Virus record (IMG/VR): IMGVR_UViG_3300023179_000221
Coordinates: 1 to 40,939 of that record
DNA length: 40,939 nucleotides
Reading direction: 5' to 3' (one strand)
Source: a virus
The first letter of the stretch is position 1; each line of letters begins with the position of its first letter. Below are positions 23,793 to 35,954 of this stretch, piece after piece. Below the pieces are notes generated by a model. The model was not told the DNA's origin. It ran no database searches and was given only the letters and a program-made list of their open reading frames with translations. The translations under genes and the position numbers were made by a program.

Positions 23793-23804
23793 GTTGTGCC
23801 ACTA

Positions 23805-23927
23805 TCAGAATTGGATCTCCTGGTCGGTGGCATCGCTCTCAGCGGAGGCGATCGTCTCCAGGATCTGCAGAATCTCATCCCCATTGCTACCACGGCGGAG
23901 CAGGGAGAGAGCAAGGTCGGCGGTCAT
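23805..23927 (-). CDS. Conserved cyanophage small helical protein (40 aa)
   Basis: MTADLALSLLRRGSNGDEIL, then QILETIASAESDATD and a QEIQF end. Similar TADLAL...L..G.NG.EIL proteins are among the most common tiny ORFs in T4-like cyanophages, of unknown function. The predicted form is a helix pair joined by the SNGDE turn. The stop codon lies in a degenerate GTGCC hairpin element. Confidence 0.8.
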   Translation of the reverse strand: MTADLALSLLRRGSNGDEILQILETIASAESDATDQEIQF

Positions 23928-23987
23928 GAGTTGAAAATGGGATAGGGTGTGCTGGGAGTCTTTAAGGGCGCTCCCGTTCCCATTGCA

Positions 23988-24170
23988 TCAGGCGGCGATG
24001 GGTTCAGGAATCAGGCGGAGCACATCATCCTCCCAGCGGTAGAAGTGCAGAATCTCAGCGTAGGGGTCAACAGCAGGGGCAGGTGCCTGTGCCTTCAGGA
24101 TTGCCGCTTTGCACTGGGCGGCGATCTCATCAATGCTCACGGCGCGGTCGGTAGCGGGGTTGTAGCGCAT
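23988..24170 (-). CDS. Conserved cyanophage hypothetical protein (60 aa)
   Basis: MRYNPATDRAVSIDEIAAQC, then AAILKAQAPAPAVDPYAEIL and a Trp-containing end (HFYRWEDDVLRLIPEPIA). It has a helix, an Ala/Pro linker and an amphipathic tail. A TACAATACTCTCAG box lies just upstream (about 24187-24203). Function unknown. Confidence 0.75.
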   Translation of the reverse strand: MRYNPATDRAVSIDEIAAQCKAAILKAQAPAPAVDPYAEILHFYRWEDDVLRLIPEPIAA

Positions 24171-24245
24171 TGGGGTTCGGTTGAGTGAACTGAGAGTATT
24201 GTAGGGCAGTCTTTCGGGCGCTGCCGTTCCCAGTGTGCCAGTGCC

Positions 24246-24431
24246 TCAGGCGGTTGCCAGGGCGGAATCGAAGTTGATCTCCCGCTCTTCGATCAGGGCG
24301 TAGTCTACGGCGATCTGCTGCTCCAGGTGCTCAGCGTATGCTTTGGCGGTGGAGCGGCAATCGAACAGGCGGAGGGTCTTGAAGTCCTCCCCTTCGTAGT
24401 CGGTGCCAGCGATGACGGCGTAGAATTTCAT
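24246..24431 (-). CDS. Conserved cyanophage hypothetical protein (61 aa)
   Basis: I take the ATG at 24431 (MKFYAVIAGTDYEGEDFKTL), whose product begins as a known cyanophage type with a following RLFDCRSTAKAYAEHLEQQ. The longer frame runs through the promoter box at 24443-24462. Probable alpha/beta fold (strand, strand, long helix). The role is unknown. Confidence 0.8.
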   Translation of the reverse strand: MKFYAVIAGTDYEGEDFKTLRLFDCRSTAKAYAEHLEQQIAVDYALIEEREINFDSALATA

Positions 24432-24475
24432 GGTCGGGTCGTTTGAACTGAATGTATTGTAAGGGGTGGCGCCCC

Positions 24476-24721
24476 TCAGAACGCCACCAGTTGGTCCAGA
24501 TCCCATTGTGGCACAAGCGCCACCTTAGCATAGGTGCTGGCGTTGGCGGTCAACCAGCGGTTGACGTGCTTGGTGGTCGTGGTGCTGTAGGTCTGCTCCG
24601 TCCGCATCCACCCCCTACCAGGCACCAGGGCGGCGACTGGGGTGGAGTAGGAGAACAGGACCTCAGTCCCGTCTGCCAGGGAGACCTGGGTTTGATTGCT
24701 GCCGATGGGTTGAACCTTCAT
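24476..24721 (-). CDS. Small phage protein with YSTTTTKHVNRWL motif (81 aa)
   Basis: The N-terminus (MKVQPIGSNQTQVSLADGTE, then VLFSYSTPVAALVPGRGW) forms strands, followed by RTEQTYSTTTTKHVNRWLT. The combination of FSYSTPVA and YS.TT..KH is the pattern of a widespread small phage family (I believe DUF8033-like). Its function is unknown. It is a single-gene unit with a TATACT box upstream. Confidence 0.75.
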   Translation of the reverse strand: MKVQPIGSNQTQVSLADGTEVLFSYSTPVAALVPGRGWMRTEQTYSTTTTKHVNRWLTANASTYAKVALVPQWDLDQLVAF

Positions 24722-24732
24722 GAGGTGTCCTC

Positions 24733-24750
24733 TGAACTGAGATCAGTATA
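24733..24750 (-). promoter_or_regulatory. Island promoter-type repeat, second copy
   Basis: Same TATACTGATCTCAGTTCA sequence as at 23747, placed 11 nt before the ATG of the YSTTTTKH gene. Confidence 0.55.
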
Positions 24751-24755
24751 AGGGG

Positions 24756-24923
24756 TCAGCGGGCGATCAGGTCGGCAGCAGTGGACAGTGCGTCTGCTGT
24801 CACAACCCTCACGGGGCGGATCGGTTCCCAGAGCAACCACAGCAGCAGAGCACCAACGGTCAGGCGGAGCATGGTAGCGCGGTGGAACTCAGGGGAGCGG
24901 GAACGGGTCAGGGAGCGGATCAT
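24756..24923 (-). CDS. Single-pass membrane peptide (55 aa)
   Basis: The ATG at 24923 is chosen because it overlaps the upstream stop as TGATG; an internal ATG at 24872 would give 38 residues. The product has a basic head (MIRSLTRSRSPEFHRATMLR) and a membrane helix LTVGALLLWLLWEPI, then a soluble tail. Positive charge before the helix suggests an N-in orientation. Last gene of a three-gene coupled set. Confidence 0.65.
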   Translation of the reverse strand: MIRSLTRSRSPEFHRATMLRLTVGALLLWLLWEPIRPVRVVTADALSTAADLIAR

Positions 24924-25006
24924 CAGCGACGGTTCAGGCGGGAGACGATCATTGCCTGGGAGAATCCCAGGACGTATGCCAACAGCATCAGGAGTCCAAC
25001 AGTCAT
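24923..25006 (-). CDS. 27-residue membrane peptide
   Basis: MTVGLLMLLAYVLGFSQAMI then VSRLNRR: one membrane helix and a basic tail. Its start overlaps the upstream stop (ATGA) and its stop overlaps the next start (TGATG). Such tight coupling on both sides is the main reason to accept so short a gene. Confidence 0.6.
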   Translation of the reverse strand: MTVGLLMLLAYVLGFSQAMIVSRLNRR

Positions 25007-25149
25007 GGTGCCAGGTGAGCGGGGGAACCACATGAACGGTAGAAGTCTACCATACGCATCGCCTCATCATAGGTGCGGAAGAACTGAGAGCGCCACTCGC
25101 AGGCATTGTATGGGACCTGGTAGCGGACTTCGTAGCGGATCAGTGCCAT
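25003..25149 (-). CDS. Small basic aromatic protein (48 aa)
   Basis: The ATG at 25149 (MALIRYEVRYQVPYNACEWR) follows the third TATACTGATCTCAG box. Then SQFFRTYDEAMRMVDFYRSC. The beta-strand, then helix pattern resembles small cyanophage proteins of unknown function. First gene of the coupled trio 25149-24756. Confidence 0.75.
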   Translation of the reverse strand: MALIRYEVRYQVPYNACEWRSQFFRTYDEAMRMVDFYRSCGSPAHLAP

Positions 25150-25158
25150 GGGGTTGTC

Positions 25159-25177
25159 TGAACTGAGATCAGTATAG
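25159..25177 (-). promoter_or_regulatory. Island promoter-type repeat, third copy
   Basis: CTATACTGATCTCAGTTCA in the minus direction, 10 nt before the start of the 48-residue gene. It follows the hairpin element at 25207-25226, the normal order of the intergenic module. Confidence 0.55.
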
Positions 25178-25206
25178 GGGGTCAGAGTGCCAGGTCTACG
25201 GGGTCT

Positions 25207-25226
25207 GTGCCACTTGCTCAACTGTC
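25207..25226 (-). repeat. GTGCCA hairpin element over a stop codon
   Basis: Reads GTGCCACTTGCTCAACTGTC on the plus strand. The TGA of the 51-residue gene (25218-25220) lies in the loop. The second arm is TGTCC instead of TGGCAC, so this copy pairs weakly. Confidence 0.5.
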
Positions 25227-25373
25227 CTCCACAAGATCAAACTTAGAATCAACACATTCCCAATAACGACACAAATCGTAGTCGGGTTCGTTGATCCATT
25301 CCTCTGCTTCTTCTTTGGTGTCGAAGACAACAGCAGTCGTGTTAGTTTCAGTAACGTAGACAGTGTAAGACAT
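25218..25373 (-). CDS. Conserved cyanophage hypothetical protein (51 aa)
   Basis: MSYTVYVTETNTTAVVFDTK, then EEAEEWINEPDYDLCRYWEC and an acidic end. The two strands followed by a helix with E-E-W give a ferredoxin-like half fold common in small phage proteins. Last gene of the nine-gene micro-operon. Codon use here is already back to the A+T-richer style. Confidence 0.75.
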   Translation of the reverse strand: MSYTVYVTETNTTAVVFDTKEEAEEWINEPDYDLCRYWECVDSKFDLVEDS

Positions 25374-25375
25374 GA

Positions 25376-25624
25376 TTAGTTCAGTTCGCGGAGTTCGTTT
25401 TCAATACAGTTGAAGATTTCCTCATAGAGGTAATCATAATCGTCTTCCACATTGTTGAGAACTTGTGCTGCAATCTCGCGGGATTGTGTCACTGGTTCTC
25501 CATCTTCATCCATCACGAATACATCTTCGCCCGTGAAGATAAATGCAGCAACAGGAGCATCTTCGCCCTGTTTAGCGATCATACGCTCAACAGATTCTTT
25601 GAGTTGTTGAAGTGTTCGTGCCAT
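25376..25624 (-). CDS. Acidic hypothetical protein (82 aa)
   Basis: MARTLQQLKESVERMIAKQG, then APVAAFIFTGEDVFVMDEDG and a Tyr/Glu-rich C-terminus (EDDYDYLYEEIFNCIENEL). The net charge is strongly negative, which recalls DNA-mimic inhibitors, but no family motif is visible. The start overlaps the upstream 13-codon frame as TGATG. Confidence 0.75.
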   Translation of the reverse strand: MARTLQQLKESVERMIAKQGEDAPVAAFIFTGEDVFVMDEDGEPVTQSREIAAQVLNNVEDDYDYLYEEIFNCIENELRELN

Positions 25625-25665
25625 CAGTCGTTGGTGGGGTGATACTCTTTGAGTGTGTCAGTCAT
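25624..25665 (-). CDS. 13-codon frame, likely fragment of a duplicated gene
   Basis: MTDTLKEYHPTND. Its start resembles the neighbouring gene's start (MTNTLKEFHFTDE), and both have the same leader. It overlaps both neighbours (ATGA and TGATG). It may be a remnant kept to couple translation, or a real tiny peptide. Confidence 0.4.
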   Translation of the reverse strand: MTDTLKEYHPTND

Positions 25666-25823
25666 TTTTGGAATACGCTCTGCCGTATGGTTTCATACAA
25701 TTTATGGGCACATTCATACTCTTGTTCAGAATAGTTTCCGTTGTCAATCGTCCAGATCAGTGCCTCCAAAAGGACATCAATCTGTTCGTCAGTGAAGTGA
25801 AACTCTTTGAGTGTGTTAGTCAT
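25662..25823 (-). CDS. Conserved cyanophage helical protein (53 aa)
   Basis: MTNTLKEFHFTDEQIDVLLE, then ALIWTIDNGNYSEQEYECAH and KLYETIRQSVFQK. Two amphipathic helices around a DNGNYSEQE turn. I recognise the type from several cyanophages, function unknown. ATGA overlap to the 13-codon frame. Confidence 0.8.
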   Translation of the reverse strand: MTNTLKEFHFTDEQIDVLLEALIWTIDNGNYSEQEYECAHKLYETIRQSVFQK

Positions 25824-25825
25824 TA

Positions 25826-26005
25826 TCAGAAACGAATAATGGGGTGATTAACATCGAGGACATCACATTCCTCAGTCGCAAATACTAACTCTACAGATGC
25901 CTGAAATACCTCATCTGGTTCATCTTCAGAGCAGATAGCAACATCTTGATTGAGTTGTTCTTCAGAAAGTTGTTGAAGTTGTGAGAGAAGTTCTTTGTAA
26001 GTCAT
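25826..26005 (-). CDS. Acidic hypothetical protein (59 aa)
   Basis: Start at 26005 (MTYKELLSQLQQLSEEQLNQ) by the ATGA overlap with the gene upstream. Then DVAICSEDEPDEVFQASVEL and VFATEECDVLDVNHPIIRF. The form (helix, strand, acidic loop, strand) is typical of a small phage protein family with LSQLQQLSEEQLNQDV. Function unknown. Confidence 0.75.
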   Translation of the reverse strand: MTYKELLSQLQQLSEEQLNQDVAICSEDEPDEVFQASVELVFATEECDVLDVNHPIIRF

Positions 26006-26130
26006 TTTCTCAGAGGAGAATTGAAGTAACGAGTGAAGCATAGCACCAGAATGATGCCAGTGGAGATGACACCGACCAGTCCGAGAACTGTCACAGTATC
26101 GCCAACGAAGTTGTAAGTTTCAGGTGTCAT
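26002..26130 (-). CDS. Single-pass membrane protein (42 aa)
   Basis: MTPETYNFVGDTVTVLGLVG then VISTGIILVLCFTRYFN: one membrane helix with a basic C-terminal end (N-out likely). ATGA overlaps at both ends place it firmly in the operon. Confidence 0.7.
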   Translation of the reverse strand: MTPETYNFVGDTVTVLGLVGVISTGIILVLCFTRYFNSPLRK

Positions 26131-26261
26131 TTGTTGCGGTTACGATGACGGAATGAAGCGGAAGGATCGGGATCATAAAGTCCACCGCCTTCACGATCTT
26201 CAAGGTAGAAAAGAATTGAAAAGGTGGTGAGAATCACACCACCCAGAATTGCAGTAATCAT
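26127..26261 (-). CDS. Single-pass membrane protein with basic tail (44 aa)
   Basis: MITAILGGVILTTFSILFYL is a membrane helix, followed by EDREGGGLYDPDPSASFRHR and NRNK. The Gly/Pro and Arg-rich cytoplasmic tail recalls other cyanophage micro-membrane proteins. The start overlaps the upstream stop as TGATG. Confidence 0.7.
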   Translation of the reverse strand: MITAILGGVILTTFSILFYLEDREGGGLYDPDPSASFRHRNRNK

Positions 26262-26410
26262 CAGTAGGTTACCAGTGCAGAAACTTTATCATAGAGGGCG
26301 GCAACATCCACCCCCACAATCTCACTCACCTCATCCCAATCATCATGGAACTCGATGAGATCCAGGAGAGCACGAATCTCTGCCTGATTGATTCCAAGAA
26401 CTTCAAACAT
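26261..26410 (-). CDS. Small hypothetical protein (49 aa)
   Basis: MFEVLGINQAEIRALLDLIE, then FHDDWDEVSEIVGVDVAALY. Helical and acidic, with a pattern that could fold as a three-helix bundle. Unknown function. It starts 2 nt before the stop of the upstream gene region. Confidence 0.7.
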   Translation of the reverse strand: MFEVLGINQAEIRALLDLIEFHDDWDEVSEIVGVDVAALYDKVSALVTY

Positions 26411-26412
26411 AA

Positions 26413-26532
26413 TCAGTAATCGTAATCGGCGGCGAGATACTCATTCAGGTTAAACTCTTCATCATTCAGTTCAGGAATGTCGAAGATTTCACCAGGAGCA
26501 TCTTGAATCTCAGACCAGAGTTCATCAAACAT
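26413..26532 (-). CDS. Very acidic 39-residue protein
   Basis: MFDELWSEIQDAPGEIFDIP then ELNDEEFNLNEYLAADYDY. About a third of residues are Asp/Glu. First gene of the nine-gene micro-operon, about 20 bp after the 20-bp promoter-type repeat at 26551. Confidence 0.7.
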   Translation of the reverse strand: MFDELWSEIQDAPGEIFDIPELNDEEFNLNEYLAADYDY

Positions 26533-26550
26533 TGGGGTGTCTTTCAGGTG

Positions 26551-26570
26551 AACGAATGTAATGTATCAGG
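26551..26570 (-). promoter_or_regulatory. Exact 20-bp promoter-type repeat, copy 1
   Basis: AACGAATGTAATGTATCAGG on the plus strand, identical at 26804-26823 and partly shared at 27119-27137 and 28973-28985. In the minus direction GATACATTACATTCGTT precedes the first gene of a unit. A GATACAT or TACATT -10 type box is the best reading. Confidence 0.5.
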
Positions 26571-26574
26571 GTCT

Positions 26575-26594
26575 GGGGGGCATTGCAACCCCCC
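26575..26594 (-). terminator. G6/C6 hairpin
   Basis: GGGGGG and CCCCCC with an 8-nt loop (CATTGCAA), directly after the GTGACA hairpin and before the promoter repeat in the minus direction. It has no U-run, so it may pause, terminate with a factor, or insulate. Confidence 0.45.
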
Positions 26595-26596
26595 TT

Positions 26597-26618
26597 GTGA
26601 CACTCTCTCAACTGTCAC
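26597..26618 (-). repeat. GTGCCA-family hairpin with compensated base pair
   Basis: GTGACA ... TGTCAC: compared with the usual GTGCCA ... TGGCAC both arms changed so that the pair is kept. The stop of the 59-residue gene (26608-26610) lies in the loop. Confidence 0.6.
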
Positions 26619-26787
26619 TAGTGTTGATGAGACCTTCCTCAATCAGATCACGAAGGAATCGACCATAAAAACCTTGCAACCAAGTGTATGCTTTGGTATC
26701 ATAGATCTGCTGAAAAAGTGTAATCACCTCATCATCAGAATCCAGACCAGTTTCCTCAAACCGTAGCAGCAGATCGGTGTCAAGCAT
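26608..26787 (-). CDS. Conserved small phage protein (59 aa, DUF7417-like)
   Basis: MLDTDLLLRFEETGLDSDDE, then VITLFQQIYDTKAYTWLQGF and YGRFLRDLIEEGLI. The pattern E-x(7)-DDEVI.LFQ.I.DT....LQG.YGR....LI..GLI is found in many phages in a short protein of unknown function (I believe DUF7417). It is probably an all-helical fold. Single-gene unit between two copies of the 20-bp promoter repeat. Confidence 0.75.
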   Translation of the reverse strand: MLDTDLLLRFEETGLDSDDEVITLFQQIYDTKAYTWLQGFYGRFLRDLIEEGLINTSDS

Positions 26788-26803
26788 TGGTGAATGTTTC
26801 AGG

Positions 26804-26823
26804 AACGAATGTAATGTATCAGG
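26804..26823 (-). promoter_or_regulatory. Exact 20-bp promoter-type repeat, copy 2
   Basis: Identical to 26551-26570; placed 17 nt before the ATG of the DUF7417-like gene and directly at the stop of the membrane-protein gene upstream. Confidence 0.5.
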
Positions 26824-26825
26824 GA

Positions 26826-27074
26826 TCAGCGGCGTTTGGTGGTTTTCTGTGCCACTTTCACAACTGGCACATCGGTATCAACAACTGCCAGCAATTGAGT
26901 CACGATTGTATGCATGAAGCGCAGCACGGTTTGAATCACCTTGCGAACTTTTTCGTTGCCGTTGTTTTCTTTGTAAGCACGAACACTAAATTGTATAATG
27001 CCCACAATGATTGCGGAGATGGTAGCAACATTGAAAATCAGAGTTTGAATGAATTTGTCAGAAAAGAGTTTCAT
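26826..27074 (-). CDS. Membrane-anchored basic protein (82 aa)
   Basis: The ATG at 27074 (MKLFSDKFIQTLIFNVATIS) follows a leader; the longer frame would cross the promoter. A membrane helix (about residues 9-30), a charged part (RAYKENNGNEKVRKVI), then a second amphipathic stretch and a very basic end (KVAQKTTKRR). I recognise the type as a cyanophage membrane protein. The GTGCCA hairpin at 26849-26870 lies inside its last codons, an exception to the normal position. Confidence 0.7.
   Translation of the reverse strand: MKLFSDKFIQTLIFNVATISAIIVGIIQFSVRAYKENNGNEKVRKVIQTVLRFMHTIVTQLLAVVDTDVPVVKVAQKTTKRR
26849..26870 (-). repeat. GTGCCA hairpin element inside a coding end
   Basis: GTGCCACTTTCACAACTGGCAC, arms GTGCCA/TGGCAC perfect. 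It is translated as part of VPVVKVA, with the stop 8 codons later, so the gene may have been extended past the element. Confidence 0.6.
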
Positions 27075-27163
27075 TACATTTGGGGTGTGGGAGGTTAAGT
27101 GTAGAGATCTCCTCAACCACGAATGTAGATTATCAGGATTTGATTGGGGTTGCAAGGGGTCTT

Positions 27164-27185
27164 GTGCCACTTAGGCGACTGTCAC
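27164..27185 (-). repeat. GTGCCA hairpin element over a stop codon
   Basis: GTGCCACTTAGGCGACTGTCAC; the TAA of the GTG-start gene (27171-27173) is in the loop. One arm pair is a mismatch (GTGCCA against TGTCAC). Confidence 0.5.
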
Positions 27186-27329
27186 ACTCACCTCTTTGAT
27201 GTTAAGACCCATCAACTGGTTTGTGACACGATTGCAGACAACTTCGGTGGGGTTCTTGACTCTGGACTTCTCATACCAGAATGTAACGCAACCATCGTAA
27301 GTTTCGACCCGAACTTTAACTTCAGTCAC
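27171..27329 (-). CDS. Small hypothetical protein with GTG start (52 aa)
   Basis: No ATG exists in frame at the right place. GTG at 27329 (VTEVKVRVETYDGCVTFWYE) has CTGAGG 7 nt upstream, a good ribosome site. Then KSRVKNPTEVVCNRVTNQLM. The sequence is beta-rich with one helix, unknown function. Its stop lies in a hairpin element. Confidence 0.65.
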   Translation of the reverse strand: MTEVKVRVETYDGCVTFWYEKSRVKNPTEVVCNRVTNQLMGLNIKEVSVTVA

Positions 27330-27425: not shown

Positions 27426-27498
27426 GGGAACCGCCTTTGCTTCTTCCCTCTCAACTTTTATAGTATGGCAGGGGATCACGAGATTCGCAACCCCCCCT

Positions 27499-27520
27499 GT
27501 GCCACTTACTCAACTGGCAC
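27499..27520 (-). repeat. GTGCCA hairpin element without an intact gene
   Basis: GTGCCACTTACTCAACTGGCAC, both arms perfect, followed in the minus direction by a run of seven G. No gene with a start codon ends here, so it may mark a lost gene. Confidence 0.6.
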
Positions 27521-27619
27521 AAGATATCTTGACGGTTGCCCTTTGGGTCTTTAAAGTTCCTATACCCTTCGGTTCAACGATACCAAAGGTATCTATAATA
27601 TTTAAGATTTCTAGATCTT

Positions 27620-27674
27620 ATTCTCAATAAGGAAAATCTTATTGAGACTCAATAAAAAAGATCTTATTGAGAAT
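27620..27674. repeat. Nested TTATTGAG hairpins
   Basis: ATTCTCAATAA (27620) and TTATTGAGAAT (27664) form an outer perfect 11-bp pair. Between them are CTTATTGAG and ACTCAATAA, giving two alternative inner hairpins. The same 11-bp pair recurs at 29483-29512 and 30362-30391. Confidence 0.6.
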
Positions 27675-27706
27675 ATAAACAAAACATATGTTCTCGCATA
27701 TAAAAA

Positions 27707-27765: not shown

Positions 27766-27923
27766 CTCGACGAGGGTAACTTTATTTAAATGTGAGGCAA
27801 ACCCATTCCTCATATAATATATCGTATATGTGATCTCGACGAGTTGTGTATATCGTATATGTGTGTATGTGATCTCGACGAGTTGTGTATGTCTCGTCGA
27901 GATCATCATATCATCTAGTCGAG
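27766..27923. promoter_or_regulatory. CTCGWCGAG site cluster I
   Basis: CTCGACGAG at 27766, 27835 and 27874, CTCGTCGAG at 27893 and a variant CTAGTCGAG at 27915. Two sites stand in a direct repeat (TATCGTATATG...GATCTCGACGAGTTGTGTA). Two form a perfect 12-bp inverted repeat (27871-27882 with 27893-27904). Likely protein-binding sites; no binding protein is known. Confidence 0.45.
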
Positions 27924-27926
27924 ATC

Positions 27927-28400
27927 CTACCAGTTCTTGTTAAACACGAACCCATCTTCGAAATCAAAATCATAACAAAGATTGCAGTTCCAGGTAGCAT
28001 CCCAATCAACTACCACGAACGAAGGTGCATCAAACCCATAGATGTCAGCGGTAAACTCTTCGGCAAATGCTGCCTCAGAATCATAAGAACCCCGATAGGC
28101 ATCTTCAAAATGACCCAGATCATTCTCATCATAGAGTTCCAGAAATGCATCAATTGCATCTGCACCATAACGATTGCAGAGTTCCTGATACAGTTCCTGA
28201 TTCTCTTCGGAGATCTCATTCTCCAAAGTCTCATTGTTGATCAGACCCTTAACAGTCAGCAACTCAGTATAAAAGGCAGTATACTGAAGTTTGCCTTCGA
28301 GTTCATACCCACAGGCACGAACGATTTCAGACATCTTAGCAGGCGGGTTTTGTGCCTGCATCTCATTCACTTTGTTCAGCAGGGAAGAACCAGTCAGCAT
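27927..28400 (-). CDS. cyAbrB-like N-terminus fused to ArdA-like antirestriction domain (157 aa)
   Basis: I start at the ATG at 28400 (MLTGSSLLNKVNEM); the frame upstream is the leader with a TATACT box. Residues 1-52 (LTGSSLLNKV, MSEIVRACGY, LQYTAFYTELLTVKGL) resemble the conserved part of cyanobacterial AbrB-type regulators (LTG..LL.KV, CGY, FYEALL). Residues 97-157 carry HFEDAYRGSYDSEAAFAEEF, then VVVDWDATWNCNL, the pattern of ArdA proteins, which mimic bent DNA and inhibit type I restriction enzymes. The product is very acidic, as a DNA mimic should be. The middle is a Glu-rich helix. Normal ArdA is about 160-180 residues in three domains, so here the first domain may be replaced. Both assignments are by eye. 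Confidence 0.6.
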   Translation of the reverse strand: MLTGSSLLNKVNEMQAQNPPAKMSEIVRACGYELEGKLQYTAFYTELLTVKGLINNETLENEISEENQELYQELCNRYGADAIDAFLELYDENDLGHFEDAYRGSYDSEAAFAEEFTADIYGFDAPSFVVVDWDATWNCNLCYDFDFEDGFVFNKNW

Positions 28401-28459: not shown

Positions 28460-28545
28460 CCAGTTGGCGGTGGCGGGGTGGTCTTAGTGCCCCCCTCAAC
28501 CTGAAATCAATATATCAGGAATTTGAGAGAAGCGCAATCACCCTT

Positions 28546-28567
28546 GTGCCACTAGTCAGACTGGCAC
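28546..28567 (-). repeat. GTGCCA hairpin element over a stop codon
   Basis: GTGCCACTAGTCAGACTGGCAC, arms GTGCCA/TGGCAC perfect. The TGA of the 64-residue gene (28556-28558) is in the loop, and its last codons (YVPV) encode one arm. Confidence 0.65.
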
Positions 28568-28750
28568 ATACCCGAACTGATCAATCATAATATCCCGCAC
28601 GTGCTCACGATCAAAACTATCACCACAGAAATTTGCACCTGATTGAATGTATTTAAAGGTCGCCTCAATGATATCATCATCAGTGGCACCCATATCATAA
28701 ATGCCACCAGGACCATAGAAGGACCTGACATAACGAATGAATTCCATCAT
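28556..28750 (-). CDS. Conserved cyanophage hypothetical protein (64 aa)
   Basis: The start at 28750 (MMEFIRYVRSFYGPGGIYDM) overlaps the upstream stop as TGATG; a GTG 3 nt earlier is also possible. Then GATDDDIIEATFKYIQSGA and CGDSFDREHVRDIMID. The FYGPGG(I/V)YD.GAT pattern is common in cyanophage small proteins, unknown function. Confidence 0.8.
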   Translation of the reverse strand: MMEFIRYVRSFYGPGGIYDMGATDDDIIEATFKYIQSGANFCGDSFDREHVRDIMIDQFGYVPV

Positions 28751-28959: not shown

Positions 28960-28986
28960 TGGATTTCTTGTGAACGAATGTAGAAT

Positions 28987-29016
28987 AACCCCTCACAAAT
29001 ATTTCTGCAAGGGGTT
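28987..29016 (-). terminator. G/C hairpin of the intergenic module
   Basis: AACCCCT and AGGGGTT form a perfect 7-bp stem around 16 nt in which CACA/TGCA can add pairs. It lies between the GTGCCA element at 29019 and the promoter box before 28959. Confidence 0.5.
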
Positions 29017-29018
29017 TT

Positions 29019-29041
29019 GTGCCAGTTTGGCAACTGGTTAC
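29019..29041 (-). repeat. GTGCCA hairpin element over a stop codon
   Basis: GTGCCAGTTTGGCAACTGGTTAC; the last positions of the second arm have changed to TTAC, which is the TAA stop of the 120-residue gene (29038-29040). The stem is weakened. Confidence 0.45.
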
Positions 29042-29400
29042 TTATACAAATATCCCCCACTCCAATCTGCATTCTGAAACAACCATTCTCGTTGTTCAAT
29101 CAAACGCAGATCATAGCGAACACCTTTGGCAGGAGATTTCCAACTGGCAGACTTATAAACCTCACCAGTCTTTTTATCAACAAAGCAATGCACAGAACGA
29201 GCACCACTAGAGTCAATCATGATGATCTTGTGATACTTACGACCAGACTCGAAGATATAATCATAACCTTCGGGAGCAGCATGACGCAGAGCATCACAGA
29301 ATTGCCACACATACTTAACAACATTCAGTTGAAGAGTATTCACAGCATCACGCTCAGCACAGTAGGCACTGAAGTCTTTGGTGAGAAAAGCAGAAGTCAT
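29038..29400 (-). CDS. Conserved phage hypothetical protein (120 aa)
   Basis: Start at 29400 (MTSAFLTKDFSAYCAERDAV). The middle part RKYHKIIMIDSSGARSVHCF, then VDKKTGEVYKSASWKSPAKG and VRYDLRL is well conserved in many cyanophages and other T4-like phages (I believe the DUF7717 type). The core looks like a beta sheet (K.IM.D......CFVDK.TGEV.K.....P.K..R.DL). Its role is unknown; a single-strand nucleic-acid-binding or replication-linked role has not been shown. Confidence 0.8.
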   Translation of the reverse strand: MTSAFLTKDFSAYCAERDAVNTLQLNVVKYVWQFCDALRHAAPEGYDYIFESGRKYHKIIMIDSSGARSVHCFVDKKTGEVYKSASWKSPAKGVRYDLRLIEQREWLFQNADWSGGYLYK

Positions 29401-29459
29401 GAGATTTCTGAGGAACGAAACCAACATAATCCCTTACGGAATATTCCACCAGGGGTCTT

Positions 29460-29536
29460 GTGCCAGTTTCCTGACTGTCCTCATTCTCAATAACAAGAGT
29501 CTTATTGAGAATCAGAACCAATCTTATAACTGGCAC
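29460..29536. repeat. GTGCCAGTT/AACTGGCAC pair with a nested hairpin insertion
   Basis: GTGCCAGTT (29460-29468) and AACTGGCAC (29528-29536) are perfect 9-bp arms, but 59 bp apart. Between them stands ATTCTCAATAA ... TTATTGAGAAT (29483-29512). It looks like a GTGCCA element into which the second hairpin family inserted. Confidence 0.55.
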
Positions 29537-29721: not shown

Positions 29722-29871
29722 TCATGCATAATGACGATAGGCAAGATCTTGATAATCGTGCCCGTCACGTGCATAATCCTCGTCGAGATCTAATGCACCT
29801 AGTACATGATAGTCTTCGAGATCTGCGTAATCATTAGTGTATGTGTAGTCGATGTCGTAATCGTCGTACAT
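29722..29871 (-). CDS. Very acidic Tyr/Asp-rich protein (49 aa)
   Basis: MYDDYDIDYTYTNDYADLED, then YHVLGALDLDEDYARDGHDY. About one third Asp/Glu and one fifth Tyr, with no basic patch: the composition of a nucleic-acid mimic. No motif names a family. A CTCGACGAG site lies 2 nt before the ATG, over the ribosome-binding position, and another flanks the TATAAT box, so the gene may be repressed there. Confidence 0.65.
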   Translation of the reverse strand: MYDDYDIDYTYTNDYADLEDYHVLGALDLDEDYARDGHDYQDLAYRHYA

Positions 29872-30080
29872 AGCTCGTCGAGATTGTGTGAACGCTTTCG
29901 TATTATATCATAAAAACTCGTCGAGATGCAATCTAGACTAAATAGAGTTCTCGTCGAGATTCATAGCAGTATATATACAAGCTCGTCGAGTTTTTATGAT
30001 TCTCGTTATATCTCGACGAGATTCTATCACGAACTTATAAGAATGTCAAGATTTTATGATTCTCGTTATATCTCGACGAG
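29779..30080. promoter_or_regulatory. CTCGWCGAG site cluster II
   Basis: Sites at 29779, 29874, 29917, 29950, 29982 (CTCGTCGAG) and 30012, 30072 (CTCGACGAG). The pair 29982/30012 is an inverted repeat with 21 bp between. TATAAT (29902-29907, minus) lies between two sites, and one site lies in the gene 29722-29871. This fits operators for a small protein that acts on the promoter of that gene. Confidence 0.45.
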
Positions 30081-30120
30081 ATTCTATCACGAACTTATAA
30101 GAATGTCAAGATTTTATGAG
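30001..30120. repeat. 60-bp tandem duplication
   Basis: Units 30001-30060 and 30061-30120 differ only in the last base. Each holds TCTCGTTATATCTCGACGAG and ends TGTCAAGATTTTATGA(T/G). The near identity suggests a very recent duplication or ongoing correction. Confidence 0.85.
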
Positions 30121-30200
30121 TCTTGTGTGGGTCTGGAAGTATTTCGGCGGGCGGTGGACTTGACAAACTCCGCGTCTTATGATACGCTCGCTTAGCTTGC

Positions 30201-30327: not shown

Positions 30328-30537
30328 ATACATAAAATATTCTCAACACCACATACACTTGATTCTCAATAATACAAAACTTATTGAAAATGTTATAGTA
30401 CACACATATATTTAATAAAATATTAACTCAAAACAGTATTTTACACTACAGAATACAAAATTTATTATACCATGAAATAAAGCATATATACCATACAATA
30501 CATAAAATGTAACAAAAATAATACCATACCATATACA

Positions 30538-31269
30538 ATGGAAAGAGGAACCATCTATCTCATTTTGAATAAGAAAAACGGACACAAGTACGTGGGAAAC
30601 ACCACACTTGCAATGAATAAAGAATGGGCACACCACATAGATCGTTCAAAAAGAATGTCTTCTAAACCTCTACACAAAGCATTCAGAGAATATGGACTAC
30701 ACAACTTTATGATGAAAGAACTGGACGAATATGATAATACCAGTTTAGATGATAAACTTAATGAATGGATTGAAAAATATAAACCCGAATACAATCCTCC
30801 TCCTATTACTCCTGTAGTAAAAGAGATTCCAATAATTGAAAAAAAACCAAGAGTTTATTCATCACCACCACATCTCATACAATGGAATAAACAAAATAGA
30901 GGAAATGGTAAACACTTTGGATTAAAGATAAGAGGAAAGAATCTAGAGACTGGTCTATGTACAGACTATGAGAATGCAAGAGTGGCTGCAGAACAAATCA
31001 CGGGTAATCCCAGAAACAACTCTAATATACTACTTGCCGCCAGAACAGATAGAATCGCATATGGTCACAGATGGCAGTTACTAGAAAACAAGAAAAAGAA
31101 AAAAGCAGTATTTGGTGTCAATAAAAAAACCGAACAAATTGAAGTTCAGTTTGAAAGTATTAATGCCGCTGTTCGTGGACTGAAAGGAACCGATAAACAA
31201 GGAATTCTAAAGAGTCTAAAAAATCCAAGACGTTATAGTTGGAAAGGTTACTGGTGGTACTTCAGTTAA
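30538..31269 (+). CDS. GIY-YIG homing-endonuclease-like protein with NUMOD-type C-terminus (243 aa)
   Basis: The only plus-strand gene in the window. Residues 4-23 (GTIYLILNKKNGHKYVGNTT) are the GIY...YIG module with both Tyr (7 and 18). A helix LHKAFREYGLHNF follows, then NEWIEKYKPEYN. Where the family normally has Arg before W-x-x-H (RW..H), this protein has Glu29 (KEWAHHI), and the usual metal-binding Glu is not clearly placed, so it may be inactive or a divergent subtype. The C-terminal part (AVFGVNKKTEQIEVQFESIN, then WKGYWWYFS) looks like a DNA-binding NUMOD/IENR repeat. No Shine-Dalgarno is seen before the ATG. Its 3' end overlaps the converging gene by 8 bp. Opposite direction and an own leader indicate a mobile insertion. 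Confidence 0.7.
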   Translation: MERGTIYLILNKKNGHKYVGNTTLAMNKEWAHHIDRSKRMSSKPLHKAFREYGLHNFMMKELDEYDNTSLDDKLNEWIEKYKPEYNPPPITPVVKEIPIIEKKPRVYSSPPHLIQWNKQNRGNGKHFGLKIRGKNLETGLCTDYENARVAAEQITGNPRNNSNILLAARTDRIAYGHRWQLLENKKKKKAVFGVNKKTEQIEVQFESINAAVRGLKGTDKQGILKSLKNPRRYSWKGYWWYFS

Positions 31270-32605: not shown

Positions 32606-32634
32606 ATTTTAGTATGATTATTTTTATTTGTCAA
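32606..32634 (-). promoter_or_regulatory. Sigma70-type promoter of the oxygenase operon
   Basis: TTGACA (32629-32634) and TAAAAT (32606-32611) with 17 bp spacing in the minus direction, 24 bp before the operon's first ATG at 32582. The -35 box is perfect. Confidence 0.65.
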
Positions 32635-32656
32635 CTGGTATTGTGCGAATCATAAG

Positions 32657-32839: not shown

Positions 32840-32982
32840 TTGTGATGAGGACAGTCGGGATGAAAAGTGTATGATGCACAGGCATCATATGCCCTGAACA
32901 TCTCAGAATCACGGTGAATCAAAAAAACATTCCATCCAAGAATAAAAGCAATTCCAACAAGAATCAAATGGTACAGTTTCAT
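32836..32982 (-). CDS. Membrane or exported Cys/His-containing protein (48 aa)
   Basis: MKLYHLILVGIAFILGWNVF is a membrane helix near the N-terminus; the rest (MFRAYDACASYTFHPDCPHH) has two Cys and four His and would lie outside. Disulfide or metal binding is possible. Not covered by any family I recognise. Confidence 0.7.
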   Translation of the reverse strand: MKLYHLILVGIAFILGWNVFLIHRDSEMFRAYDACASYTFHPDCPHHK

Positions 32983-32985
32983 AAA

Positions 32986-33147
32986 TCAGTCCTCAGGATA
33001 GAGTTTCCAACCGTCAGGGCATATGCCCAGTTCTTCACAGCGCACCTCATAAACAATGCGCTTCAGCAGGCGCATAGACATTTCCTGCTCAATTGTTTTT
33101 TGAATTGTGCGGCGCAGTTGTGCATCTGTGATGGTATCGGTGATCAT
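32986..33147 (-). CDS. Small basic protein (53 aa)
   Basis: MITDTITDAQLRRTIQKTIE then EMSMRLLKRIVYEVRCEELG and ICPDGWKLYPED. Helical with a Cys-Pro-Asp-Gly-Trp end, a type known in cyanophages (unassigned). A TATAAT box in the palindrome TGTATTATACA (33170-33180) precedes it. Confidence 0.75.
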   Translation of the reverse strand: MITDTITDAQLRRTIQKTIEQEMSMRLLKRIVYEVRCEELGICPDGWKLYPED

Positions 33148-33208
33148 CGGTGATTTCCTTGATTACCTCTGTATTATACAAGAAGAATCTCCTCATCACG
33201 AGTGTGCC

Positions 33209-33230
33209 GTGCCAGTTTGATGAGTGGCAC
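33209..33230 (-). repeat. GTGCCA hairpin element
   Basis: GTGCCAGTTTGATGAGTGGCAC, arms GTGCCA/TGGCAC perfect. It lies 19 nt after the stop of the 67-residue gene, before the next TATAAT box in the minus direction. Confidence 0.6.
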
Positions 33231-33248
33231 ATTCGATTCATTCATACA

Positions 33249-33452
33249 TCAGAATGAAGGAGTCACATCATTTTTCAATAATATACTGGATCGATCCATT
33301 TGTTCAAATACCGTATAAAATTTATTGTAAAGTGCCGAAACACTTCCATATTCTCTTGCGATGATTTGCTCTTCGGGCAAATTTACAAGTTGCAGTGCAG
33401 ATAGAATCACTCCAATTTCGTGTACATTCAGATTTACTTGTATATCAGTCAT
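33249..33452 (-). CDS. Hypothetical protein (67 aa)
   Basis: MTDIQVNLNVHEIGVILSAL, then QLVNLPEEQIIAREYGSVSA and LYNKFYTVFEQMDRSS. The pattern 'V.L....V..IL.AL........I...YGSV..LYNK' is a familiar conserved cyanophage protein. Probably a small helical dimer. Unknown role. Confidence 0.8.
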   Translation of the reverse strand: MTDIQVNLNVHEIGVILSALQLVNLPEEQIIAREYGSVSALYNKFYTVFEQMDRSSILLKNDVTPSF

Positions 33453-33456
33453 TTGT

Positions 33457-33837
33457 TTAATCCCAAGAAACGTCTTTTAAAGTTACACCAGGCATTACAT
33501 ATGTCCAACCATCTCTAGATGCCACATAATCCCACTTGTATTCGTATTGATTGTAGTTGTCCCAAGTCATATATCCAGCAGTTTTATCAAATCGCCCTTT
33601 GATGATTAGTTTAAACAAATTTGAAAAAATATTACGAGTGCGAAGACCTCCACCAGTTTCGCGGGTTTCAATTACCACACAAGTATCTTCAAAGATTTGA
33701 CCTTTACTTTCTAGATGACAGGGAGTTTCATATCGAAATGGTTTGTAGATTTTGGATTCTTTAGATGTAAGAAATGTAGTTTGTGCAAATGTGGTTTTTC
33801 CCAATAGAAGTAATGCCACAATTAATAAAGTTTTCAT
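33457..33837 (-). CDS. Exported protein of unknown function (126 aa)
   Basis: I take the ATG at 33837; the frame also opens at a TTG 3 nt before. The signal peptide is clear: MKTLLIVALLLLGKTTFAQT with a cleavage after Ala-Gln or nearby. The mature part has three Cys, Trp/Tyr-rich strands (MTWDNYNQYEYKWDYVASRD) and no known domain. It may act at the cell envelope, e.g. in lysis or superinfection exclusion. Confidence 0.75.
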   Translation of the reverse strand: MKTLLIVALLLLGKTTFAQTTFLTSKESKIYKPFRYETPCHLESKGQIFEDTCVVIETRETGGGLRTRNIFSNLFKLIIKGRFDKTAGYMTWDNYNQYEYKWDYVASRDGWTYVMPGVTLKDVSWD

Positions 33838-33847
33838 CAATCAAATA

Positions 33848-33997
33848 TCAGTAGAGTTTTTCTTTCTTGCCATATTCTATCATAAATCTTCGGGCAGAGT
33901 AAGCCTCAAACTGTGTGGCAAATGATGCGATTTTTTGCCCATTATCTGCCCAGTACAAATACCAGCGATTGTAAAACTGTTTAATGAGAATCGGCAT
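33848..33997 (-). CDS. Small basic aromatic protein (49 aa)
   Basis: MPILIKQFYNRWYLYWADNG, then QKIASFATQFEAYSARRFMI and YGKKEKLY. Strand-strand-helix with many Tyr/Trp, like other small phage proteins. It ends 11 bp before the exported-protein start. Confidence 0.7.
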   Translation of the reverse strand: MPILIKQFYNRWYLYWADNGQKIASFATQFEAYSARRFMIEYGKKEKLY

Positions 33998-34003
33998 CTT
34001 AGA

Positions 34004-34102
34004 TTAGTAGATCAGATTAATCACTGTTTGAGTGACTCTAACTCCCCAGTTCATAAAGATAAAAAATGAGGAAATAAAAATGAGTTTGTCAGTCGTATTC
34101 AT
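34004..34102 (-). CDS. 32-residue membrane peptide
   Basis: MNTTDKLIFISSFFIFMNWG then VRVTQTVINLIY. One membrane helix. It overlaps the gene upstream by 14 bp in another frame, and fills an otherwise empty gap. Confidence 0.5.
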   Translation of the reverse strand: MNTTDKLIFISSFFIFMNWGVRVTQTVINLIY

Positions 34103-34181
34103 CGGGAGTTTCAATCAGGTGACCAGTGATAATACCAATAAAAATGGATAAAAAAAACCAAAAGAGTAAAAACACCATCAT
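34089..34181 (-). CDS. 30-residue membrane peptide
   Basis: MMVFLLFWFFLSIFIGIITG then HLIETPDEYD. An almost pure membrane helix with an acidic tail (N-in unlikely). Placed 2 bp after the Gly-rich exported protein's stop. Confidence 0.6.
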   Translation of the reverse strand: MMVFLLFWFFLSIFIGIITGHLIETPDEYD

Positions 34182-34182
34182 T

Positions 34183-34587
34183 TTAGTTGCAGACTGCACT
34201 ACCAACTATACCACCAGTAACAACACCAAGTGGAATGCTCCACCAACGATCTGGTACACTTTTTGTTACTGCATATGCACCAAGTCCACCTAAAATTGAT
34301 CCTAATGGTGCTGCCGAACAAGTTGGTTGTGCAACTGGTTGCATCACTGGAGTGGCATAATAAGAACCACCATTGTTGGAATGATAGTATGTTTGGTTCT
34401 TGCAGTTTGTATTGTATGCTTGCGTATTCACACCACCTTGCACATAGTTACCGTACTGATCATAATATCCAGGTGCATAGTTTTCATGATAAGTTCGACA
34501 AACCTGATAGATGTTTGTTTGTTGTGCTTTTCCAATAACAGGTGCAGAACACAACATTAAAGGAATCAGAATGAGTAGTTTTTTCAT
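34183..34587 (-). CDS. Exported glycine-zipper protein (134 aa)
   Basis: Signal peptide MKKLLILIPLMLCSAPVIGK, possibly a lipoprotein-like Cys at 13 but without a clean lipobox. The middle is Tyr/Asn/Gly/Gln-rich (YHENYAPGYYDQYGNYVQGG). The C-terminal part (SILGGLGAYAVTKSV, then PLGVVTGGIVGSAVCN) is a glycine zipper, as in envelope proteins that insert in membranes. I recognise the type in cyanophages. Likely acts at the host envelope; the function is inference. Confidence 0.75.
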   Translation of the reverse strand: MKKLLILIPLMLCSAPVIGKAQQTNIYQVCRTYHENYAPGYYDQYGNYVQGGVNTQAYNTNCKNQTYYHSNNGGSYYATPVMQPVAQPTCSAAPLGSILGGLGAYAVTKSVPDRWWSIPLGVVTGGIVGSAVCN

Positions 34588-34598
34588 TTTTATGATGA

Positions 34599-34826
34599 TT
34601 AATAAACAGTAATCTTCAAAGACTCTAGCAGCATCATCGCAAGTTCCATTTGATTATCTTCATCAATCACAGGAATGTTAGCATTTACAAACTCACTTGC
34701 AAGTTCGGCAAAGAGTTCAGTCGTTCGCTCATTTGCAAAGACAGATGTAGCAAACTCACTCTTAAAACCATCGCACAGAAGACGCAGAGACTTGGTGATG
34801 GTCAGTTCGTTGATGGTGTCGTTCAT
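34599..34826 (-). CDS. Conserved cyanophage helical protein (75 aa)
   Basis: The ATG at 34826 (MNDTINELTITKSLRLLCDG) is chosen, because the upstream part of the frame is the intergenic module. Then FKSEFATSVFANERTTELFA and ELASEFVNANIPVIDEDNQM. Helical throughout; a conserved small phage protein of unknown role. Confidence 0.75.
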   Translation of the reverse strand: MNDTINELTITKSLRLLCDGFKSEFATSVFANERTTELFAELASEFVNANIPVIDEDNQMELAMMLLESLKITVY

Positions 34827-34865
34827 TGGGGGTGTTTTGATTACTTTGTTATTATAAGGCATCTG

Positions 34866-34883
34866 GGGTGCATTGAAGCACCC
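34866..34883 (-). terminator. G/C hairpin of the intergenic module
   Basis: GGGTGC and GCACCC with a 6-nt loop, between the GTGCCA element (34887) and a TATAAT box (34850-34855, minus). Confidence 0.5.
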
Positions 34884-34886
34884 ACT

Positions 34887-34908
34887 GTGCCAGTTCTCCA
34901 AGTGGTTA
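34887..34908 (-). repeat. GTGCCA hairpin element, degraded second arm
   Basis: GTGCCAGTTCTCCAAGTGGTTA. It lies about 60 bp after the stop of the 41-residue gene, whose own end carries another, complete copy. Confidence 0.45.
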
Positions 34909-34969
34909 GCGGTCATTGGTTGATTGTGTATGTGCTTATTGTAGCGGCACCTAGGCACCGCTCAGAAAG

Positions 34970-35095
34970 TCAGTATGCCAGTTCCGAATCTGGCACCAAG
35001 AAGTCATCAGTTTCCATATAACCCATCCAATCTTGGGGATCAGACTCATAGATTGCAATTTCCCGCAGTTCGTCAATCAGTTCAGACAGATCCAT
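34970..35095 (-). CDS. Acidic hypothetical protein (41 aa)
   Basis: MDLSELIDELREIAIYESDP then QDWMGYMETDDFLVPDSELA. Strongly acidic, helical start. Its last codons contain a GCCA...TGGC element (34974-34996). Ribosome site GAGGGTTTCTT. Unknown function. Confidence 0.75.
   Translation of the reverse strand: MDLSELIDELREIAIYESDPQDWMGYMETDDFLVPDSELAY
34974..34996 (-). repeat. Hairpin element inside a coding end
   Basis: TATGCCAGTTCCGAATCTGGCA: GCCAG/CTGGC arms, translated as part of PDSELA. Confidence 0.4.
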
Positions 35096-35126
35096 AAGAA
35101 ACCCTCAGATACCTGATTATTATAAC

Positions 35127-35145
35127 AGAAAACCCGCTTTGTGGG
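35127..35145 (-). terminator. Intrinsic terminator
   Basis: In the minus direction CCCAC AAA GCGGG (one mismatch) then TTTTCT, 16 nt after the stop of the 50-residue gene. A TATAAT box (35118-35123) of the next unit follows. Confidence 0.6.
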
Positions 35146-35153
35146 TGAGTAGT

Positions 35154-35176
35154 GTGCCAGTTAGTTTTGTGGCGGT
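35154..35176 (-). repeat. GTGCCA hairpin element over a stop codon
   Basis: GTGCCAGTTAGTTTTGTGGCGG; the TAA of the 50-residue gene (35161-35163) lies in the loop, and the second arm is GTGGCGG instead of TGGCAC. Confidence 0.4.
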
Positions 35177-35313
35177 GGAAGTTGTGGTTTTGCTGCTTCT
35201 ATGGTAGTTTTTTGTAAACTTGTCATACCTTGATTTAAGACATTAGCAATCGGAGTGAAACCAACAGTTGCAGCAATAATACCAAAAATTACACCAAAAA
35301 TAAAGTTAAACAT
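35161..35313 (-). CDS. Single-pass membrane protein with Gln/Pro tail (50 aa)
   Basis: MFNFIFGVIFGIIAATVGFT is one membrane helix, then an amphipathic part and a AAKPQLPPPQN tail. Resembles small cyanophage membrane proteins. 3-4 bp from the gene upstream. Confidence 0.7.
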   Translation of the reverse strand: MFNFIFGVIFGIIAATVGFTPIANVLNQGMTSLQKTTIEAAKPQLPPPQN

Positions 35314-35316
35314 TAC

Positions 35317-35442
35317 TTATTCATCAATATAAACATAATCGGGGTGTTTTGCTTTAAAAGCTTCTACCTGTTCTTCATTTTTAAGAAACACCGAAAGAGT
35401 AGTATTCGGATATTCTTTATAGTAATACTTTATGCGAATCAT
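35317..35442 (-). CDS. Small basic hypothetical protein (41 aa)
   Basis: MIRIKYYYKEYPNTTLSVFL then EEQVEAFKAKHPDYVYIDE. Strand, helix, strand. Coupled to the 143-residue gene upstream by an ATGA overlap. Unknown function. Confidence 0.75.
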   Translation of the reverse strand: MIRIKYYYKEYPNTTLSVFLKNEEQVEAFKAKHPDYVYIDE

Positions 35443-35870
35443 ACCATTAATGCTCCAGTGGGAATTTCAACAATTTCAGGCAGTTTACTATCATCAAACT
35501 GATTCATATTATAGCACACCCATTCACCATTACGGAAGACATAAGCATACTCTTCACTATTATCAGGAAGAAGATACTCACACAGGTCAGCATCAAGGCG
35601 AGGAGGGCAATTCTCACCACGATAGGAATAATAATTAGGTCCATAAGAATAATTGGGTCCATAAGAACCGTCAGCACTATTATCCCAGCGGTCATCAGTC
35701 CAGCAGCAGGACATATCGCCACCATCAATCAGTTCAGCGGCAAGTTCTTTGCTATTGTAGTGAGTATTCAGGATACGACCCAACCATTCGGGATAACCAT
35801 CATAATGATGATATGCCGACAAAATAGAACCGTCAGCGAGTTCAAGACCGATGCGGGAGCGGGTTGCCAT
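35439..35870 (-). CDS. Conserved phage protein, MATRSRIG type (143 aa)
   Basis: MATRSRIGLELADGSILSAY then HHYDGYPEWLGRILNTHYNS is a strongly conserved phage signature. A Gly/Asn/Tyr repeat (DGSYGPNYSYGPNYYSY) follows at about 67-83, then a C-terminal Cys/Tyr-rich domain (YVFRNGEWVCYN). It is found in many phages and in some bacteria; no function is known. The repeat is likely a flexible linker. Confidence 0.85.
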   Translation of the reverse strand: MATRSRIGLELADGSILSAYHHYDGYPEWLGRILNTHYNSKELAAELIDGGDMSCCWTDDRWDNSADGSYGPNYSYGPNYYSYRGENCPPRLDADLCEYLLPDNSEEYAYVFRNGEWVCYNMNQFDDSKLPEIVEIPTGALMV

Positions 35871-35933
35871 TGGGGGCTTTTGTTGATTACCTCCATATTA
35901 TAAAGGGTCCCCAGTGCCCTGAGAACCCCCTGT

Positions 35934-35954
35934 GTGCCAGTTTGTCAACTGTCC
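35934..35954 (-). repeat. GTGCCA hairpin element beside a stop codon
   Basis: GTGCCAGTTTGTCAACTGTCC directly before the TGA of the 70-residue gene. It shares AACTGTCCTC with the copies at 25207 and 29460. Confidence 0.45.

Follow-up and report, generated by a model that had tools for sequence, protein, structure and literature searches.

A 24-bp DNA element at a fixed distance from predicted −10 boxes, a likely activator site in T4-like cyanophages

Introduction

T4-like cyanophages are among the most abundant marine viruses. Cyanophages carry neither motA nor asiA, and how the T4-like members steer the host polymerase to early genes without Alt, MotA and AsiA has been called unclear (PMC2984593). 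The closest described arrangement is the PeSL, a promoter(early)-stem-loop cassette of T4-type phages (Arbiol 2010 and Comeau 2014, as cited in PMC4503421). PeSLs have been discussed as drivers of gene shuffling, and few were found in S-PM2 (Puxty 2015, PMC4503421). Here we analyse a 40.9-kb IMG/VR fragment (IMGVR_UViG_3300023179_000221, the whole of which we call the window) in which a 24-bp element, made of the half-sites TGTGNCA and TGNCACA 10 bp apart, recurs between small genes, and we compare it with phage isolates, other IMG/VR stretches and cellular genomes.

A further report concerns the same group of phages. Doron et al. (2016, ISME J 10:1437) reportedly described a 'novel regulatory element' of early genes in the T4-like cyanophages Syn9 and P-TIM40, and this element is said to be conserved among T4-like cyanophages.

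Results

A repeat at constant distance from the −10 box

A first-pass annotation of the window had described a GTGCCA...TGGCAC hairpin that recurs between minus-strand genes and is followed by a −10 box. The repeat is real and far above chance, and every coordinate given for it checks out. The strict palindrome GTGCCANTT-n2-8-AANTGGCAC occurs twice in the window compared to 0 times in 100 shuffles. Allowing one mismatch at most in the half-site TGGCACA raises the number to 15. These copies span 23.8 to 36.0 kb, every one on the minus strand, and one of them (34974-34997) had been missed. The two arms are unequal: the promoter-proximal half, on the right when the minus strand is read, hardly varies, while the distal half TGTGCCA ranges from good to unrecognisable, with 3-5 mismatches out of 7 in 8 of the 14 tabulated window copies.

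All 15 copies are followed by a −10-like hexamer, and it lies 28, 29 or 30 nt from the element in every case. This constant spacing, on which the annotation had not remarked, is the key to the element. The stop codon of the upstream gene, by comparison, had been placed in the loop of the hairpin for many copies. Comparing the ends of open reading frames (ORFs) with the sites, we find it there in 7 of the 15 copies; in the others it precedes the site by as much as about 60 nt or, at 26848, follows it. The copy at 26848-26871 is located inside the upstream ORF, whose stop (26826-26828) is downstream of the element. The copies are as follows, the offset being the distance in nt between the element and the −10 box.

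35933-35956, minus strand: copy 1 (GAGGACAGTTGACAAACTGGCACA); −10 TATAAT at 35897-35902, offset 30
35153-35176, minus strand: copy 2, proximal half only, with a TAA stop inside; −10 TATAAT at 35119-35124, offset 28
34974-34997, minus strand: copy 3 (ends CTGGCATA); TACAAT at 34938-34943, offset 30
34886-34909, minus strand: copy 4, proximal half; TATAAT at 34851-34856, offset 29; spacer hairpin GGGTGC/GCACCC
33208-33231, minus strand: copy 5 (TGTGCCACTCATCAAACTGGCACG); −10 TATAAT at 33173-33178, offset 29
29459-29482, minus strand: copy 6; TATGTT at 29423-29428, offset 30; precedes the DUF7717/phrog_818 gene
29018-29041, minus strand: copy 7; TATTCT at 28982-28987, offset 30; spacer repeat ACCCCT/AGGGGT
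28545-28568, minus strand: copy 8 (TGTGCCAGTCTGACTAGTGGCACA), stop in loop; TATATT at 28509-28514, offset 30; precedes the anti-restriction (ArdA-like) gene
27498-27521, minus strand: copy 9, full consensus match; CATACT at 27462-27467, offset 30
27163-27186, minus strand: copy 10, stop in loop; GATAAT/TAATCT at 27127-27134, offset 28 or 30
26848-26871, minus strand: copy 11, full consensus match; TACATT at 26813-26818, offset 29
26596-26619, minus strand: copy 12 (AGTGACAGTTGAGAGAGTGTCACA); TACATT at 26560-26565, offset 30; spacer hairpin GGGGGG/CCCCCC
25206-25229, minus strand: copy 13, stop in loop; TATACT at 25171-25176, offset 29
24234-24257, minus strand: copy 14, proximal half only; TACAAT at 24198-24203, offset 30
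23795-23818, minus strand: copy 15, proximal half only; TATACT at 23759-23764, offset 30

Two of the genes behind these sites could be assigned to families.

27927-28400, minus strand: anti-restriction protein behind copy 8 (phrog_36653, E 5e-13)
29038-29400, minus strand: DUF7717/phrog_818 protein behind copy 6, conserved in 9 of 10 Kyanoviridae genomes compared

The spacing rule and promoter architecture in other phages

Further IMG/VR sites were chosen by exact pattern. The strict 24-bp pattern is found in at least 119 stretches, compared to about one or fewer expected by chance according to our estimate. Among the matches listed, 94 of 129 unique sites have a box (5 or 6 positions of TATAAT) on one or both sides at an offset of 28-31; in six other offset bands the same test is passed by 1-12 of the 129. 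For 213 non-redundant oriented sites among the matches listed, the box is found at offset 29 (55 sites) or 30 (25 sites), with around 1-2 sites at each other offset. ACG-2014f shows the rule most clearly: the offset is 29 or 30 in 27 of 27 copies (standard deviation 0.47), whereas the distance to the nearest stop codon varies from −36 to +24 (standard deviation 14) and 3 sites adjoin no stop at all. The freshwater isolate S-CRM01 has a TATGCT box, again at 29 nt. In P-HM2, most minus-strand sites near inverted genes are located around 62 nt ahead of gene starts.

Together these sites give the consensus TGTGNCA-S-TT-N4-AA-S-TGGCACA, followed after 29-30 bp by a TATAAT-like −10. The 24-bp element thus covers about −66 to −43, with its centre near −54, upstream of a weak −35; among the matches listed, the IMG/VR sites of the 29-nt offset class have no strong −35 consensus. 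Based on this architecture and on the distribution given below, we consider it likely that the repeat acts as double-stranded DNA and belongs to a class of sigma70-type promoters restricted to T4-like cyanophages; it is likely an activator site.

Two other functions can be weighed against the same data. The dyad adjoins promoters, and early genes would have to be switched off, so an operator for a repressor that silences early genes at later stages of infection might look similar; a position from −66 to −43 that leaves the core promoter free, together with the weak −35, fits activation better, and we regard an operator as quite unlikely. It is also very unlikely that the repeat serves mainly as a recombination site for the shuffling of small genes by cassette exchange, since a recombination site could work at any distance from a −10 box and the one mapped deletion of S-PM2 (5799-15339) does not end at elements, even though near-identical modules do recur between small genes and PeSL cassettes have been proposed for that role in T4-type phages (work cited in PMC4503421).

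Two additional features of spacing and sequence were noted. In the IMG/VR set, a secondary peak at offset 40 resembled one helical turn and so raised the possibility of helical phasing. We make no claim for it, since 4 sites are left at this offset once near-duplicates and those that have a box at 28-31 are taken out. The 123-160 kb region of S-CRM01 has a separate sub-consensus of perfect G/C palindromes with a TTATGCTAGCTAAGTGGTC −10/start region and the same 29-nt spacing.

A DNA element rather than an RNA hairpin

Four independent tests agree that the repeat is a DNA element and not an RNA hairpin; its fixed −10 spacing, non-pairing arms, half-site asymmetry and use by divergent promoters mark it as promoter-linked. 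The first test is the spacing described above, and the second concerns the inner arm positions 8 and 17 of the 24-mer. Among the matches listed, 117 of 129 sites carry a non-pairing combination there, either G/G (61) or C/C (56), compared to 12 sites with pairing combinations (Fisher p = 4e-24). Third, the proximal half alone is enriched in front of boxes at offsets 29 and 30 (7 and 4 cases for a background of 1.0); for the distal half alone, 2 and 0 cases on a background of 1.9 show no such enrichment. Fourth, 17 of the 129 sites among the matches listed have boxes on both sides. For example, the P-HM2 site at 39292-39315, between PHM2_064 (minus strand) and PHM2_066 (plus strand), has a box at 30 nt on each side; PHM2_065, a doubtful ORF of 42 codons, overlaps this site.

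The first-pass annotation had offered GTGCCA...TGGCAC as a processing or termination signal, which would make it a hairpin at mRNA 3′ ends. Stop codons overlapped by 7 of the 15 window copies, several perfect palindromes in the window and the mostly fully paired copies of S-CRM01 speak for such a hairpin, yet it would have to accommodate arms that are mismatched at 117 of 129 listed sites, a distal arm that is missing from many functional-looking copies, a spacing fixed to the −10 instead of the stop codon, a single copy common to divergent promoters, where no mRNA ends, and a palindrome with no U-tract after it. We consider an RNA signal highly improbable and retain the promoter-linked DNA element.

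Distribution in phages and hosts

The gp6-like protein of the window (17384-19312, minus strand) is 61-63% identical to those of P-SSM2, S-SKS1 and S-SRM01, and the window therefore belongs to a T4-like cyanophage (Kyanoviridae). Its large minus-strand genes are T4-type baseplate genes, and the copies of the element are situated in a cluster of small genes upstream of gp25-gp6. No isolate is close to the window at the DNA level, with short matches to S-SRM01. An Rfam search of the whole window gave no family match at E up to 1. A homing endonuclease gene of HNH/GIY-YIG type is found on the opposite strand inside the small-gene cluster (30541-31269, plus strand), and the small-gene cluster of S-SRM01 has an HNH gene as well.

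A scan of related phages, as the first-pass annotation had proposed, finds the element in 12 of the 13 Kyanoviridae records tested (isolate counts are not phylogenetically independent) and 0 times in reversed-pattern controls. Besides the window, the records with the element are S-SRM01, Syn9, S-PM2, P-SSM2, P-SSM4, P-HM2, S-SKS1, ACG-2014f, S-T4, S-CRM01 and S-RSM4. The Syn9 copies at 48558, 51000, 52996, 127492 and 148742 each have a −10-like box at 28-29 nt. No element is found in the T7-like P-SSP7 and Syn5, S-TIM5, PSS2 (siphovirus), T4, KVP40 or Ma-LMM01, even with 3 mismatches allowed.

Cellular genomes contain few sites. In 257 Gb of sequence there are 13 exact matches, 2 of which look like phage contamination, and 151 picocyanobacterial genomes contain 13 sites compared to 2 in the reversed control. 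Gene context is not conserved around these picocyanobacterial sites, and hardly any is followed by a −10 at 29-30 nt. A host regulon was accordingly rejected, because the two genome sets gave almost no promoter-like sites.

The phages could still have borrowed a site to which a host transcription factor binds; such use has been proposed for NtcA and shown for PhoB sites. In favour of this, host polymerase in its unmodified form is believed to transcribe the early genes (PMC2984593), the use of host factors by cyanophages is documented (PMC3037559, PMC10976474), and the 13 sites compared to 2 in picocyanobacteria amount to a weak excess. The lack of gene context and of correctly placed −10 boxes at host sites argues the other way, as do phages of the same hosts that do without the element (P-SSP7 on MED4, Syn5 on WH8109) and a sequence that resembles neither GTA-N8-TAC nor a Pho box; we find a borrowed host factor rather unlikely. 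NtcA in particular is ruled out by the consensus TGTGNCA-N10-TGNCACA. Overall the distribution of sites appears to favour a phage-lineage-specific factor over a general host regulator, short of proof.

Part of the module has been listed elsewhere as a putative Pho box. Rihtman 2024 (PMC10976474) gives CCTATACTGATCTCAGTTC upstream of S-PM2d250 as such a box, and the core of CCTATACTGATCTCAGTTC corresponds to the −10 and start region of the window copies at 25206 and 23795. The start region TATACTGATCTCAGTTCA is near-identical at three promoters of the window (25171-25149, 24756-24720 and 23764-23740) and is found at several other cyanophage loci too; it is the S-PM2d counterpart of this region that is listed as a putative Pho box (PMC10976474).

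Terminators nested in the spacer

In the window, a second hairpin, counted when its stem has 5 or more pairs, is present in the spacer between element and −10 of 5 copies out of 15, compared to 1.0 in shuffles. Copy 15 has an intrinsic terminator at this position.

23775-23792, minus strand: intrinsic terminator GGAGGGG-CATT-CCCCTCC followed by CTTTTG, in the spacer between copy 15 and its −10

Across isolates and window, 25 of 107 spacers contain stems of at least 6 pairs compared to around 1.5 in shuffles (sums over genomes). Canonical intrinsic terminators with a T tract are found in spacers of P-SSM2 (AACCCCCT-TTC-AGGGGGTTTTTT), S-PM2 (GGGACT-TGCT-AGTCCCTTTTTT) and S-SKS1 (AGACCC-TTGAC-GGGTCTTTTTT), and ACG-2014f and S-CRM01 have several more. 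The enrichment is weak in the IMG/VR set, where stems of at least 5 pairs are found in 7 of 88 spacers among the matches listed compared to 2.2 expected. Spacer terminators are thus a feature of some lineages.

The first-pass annotation had a second hairpin following the element often and, with it, a stop-insulate-start cassette for each small gene. What we find is an intrinsic terminator nested in the spacer of a minority of copies and absent from most: each small gene has its own predicted promoter, and the insulating terminator is limited to a subset, for which the stop-insulate-start description holds.

Other repeats in the small-gene cluster

Several further repeats are present in the same cluster. 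The motif CTCGWCGAG occurs in 11 copies for 0.04 expected in shuffles, grouped at 27766-27901 and 29779-30080 with spacings of about 30, 32, 43 and 60 nt within the groups. Clusters of 4-10 copies are found in S-SRM01 and in many other viral loci examined. These clusters resemble an array of binding sites, such as iterons, an operator array or a partition-like array. At 30021-30140, two tandem copies of around 60 bp each contain TTGACA-N17-TAGAAT, a strong sigma70-like promoter, and then CTCGTCGAG. Finally, TCTCAATAAG...TTATTGAGAA inverted repeats recur at 27640-27680, 29475-29515 and 30370-30385, some with a T run; they are apparently another small mobile or regulatory repeat.

Discussion

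We propose that an activator, probably specific to the phage lineage, binds the element and would recruit the host RNA polymerase to the promoters of small early genes involved in host takeover. The promoter-proximal half-site would be essential for this recruitment and the distal half-site would strengthen it. At the minority of copies with a spacer terminator, upstream transcription would stop within the promoter of the next gene, leaving an insulated gene unit. Anti-restriction proteins are typical of early genes. We infer early timing from the clustering of sites in the small-gene region that adjoins gp25-gp6, and from the anti-restriction gene behind one window site.

A number of results weigh against such an activator. 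The −10 boxes are predicted throughout, being sequence matches. One Kyanoviridae record, S-SM2, lacks the element even when 2 mismatches are allowed. The copies in S-CRM01 are mostly true, perfect G/C palindromes, which means that the non-pairing rule is not universal. No DNA-binding domain and no helix-turn-helix was found when around 30 proteins of Syn9, the majority conserved among cyanophages, were compared with Pfam and PHROGs. In addition, early genes need a factor that is present at entry, and a newly made phage protein fails this requirement unless it is packaged. Syn9 gp230 (phrog_385, 76 aa), the sole protein with a 'transcriptional regulator' label, was set aside as a weak candidate for the binder, having no solved relative.

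A more specific proposal, to which we give somewhat less than an even chance, is that T4-like cyanophages carry or inject a dedicated DNA-binding activator for the asymmetric 24-bp dyad, combining a priority switch for early genes with spacer-terminator cassettes. If true, a dedicated activator would be the early-gene priority switch of phages that have no Alt, MotA or AsiA. With a defined element, a spacing rule, distinct half-site roles and phage specificity, the binder becomes directly searchable. The element may also serve as a signature for early host-takeover genes, including anti-restriction proteins, among the thousands of small metagenome genes of no assigned function.

How does the element compare with known systems? 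The element reported by Doron et al. and the one found here are probably the same. The phage group is shared, Syn9 carries the element found here, and this element too would serve small early genes. Conservation across T4-like cyanophages is likewise seen in our data, with the element in 12 of 13 Kyanoviridae records and in 0 of 7 others.

The middle promoters of T4 are similar in that an upstream box read by a phage activator is combined with a host sigma70 −10. The MotA box is short and non-palindromic, lies at about −30 and replaces the −35; the present element, in contrast, is a 24-bp dyad at −54. Sites of Class I activators such as CRP share with it a dyad at a fixed position upstream of a weak −35, but half-site spacing and sequence differ, being TGTGNCA-N10-TGNCACA over 24 bp here. 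A sigma-54 promoter (TGGCAC-N5-TTGCA, with GG and GC 10 bp apart) was considered and rejected: TTGCA follows TGGCAC after 8 nt in some copies and is missing in many.

The PeSL is the composite cassette most relevant to the statement of the first-pass annotation that no description of the module was known. PeSLs of T4-type phages had been described, and the S-PM2 stem loop at 11369-11391 listed by Puxty 2015 (PMC4503421) is the spacer hairpin of one module. As in PeSLs, a terminator stem loop and a probable early promoter can be found together in a short intergenic cassette between small variable genes. The predicted sigma70-type promoter is present as well, since a −10 at 28-30 nt follows all 15 copies of the window and all 27 of ACG-2014f. 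Unlike in PeSLs, the conserved core is a 24-bp upstream element at fixed spacing, and the terminator, nested between the element and the −10, is something that most modules do without: around a quarter have one, with stems of 6 or more pairs in 25 of 107 spacers. T4 and KVP40 do not have the element, another difference from the PeSLs of T4-type phages. Because most copies have no terminator, the module falls partly outside the PeSL definition; in its working it resembles a PeSL to which an upstream element has been added.

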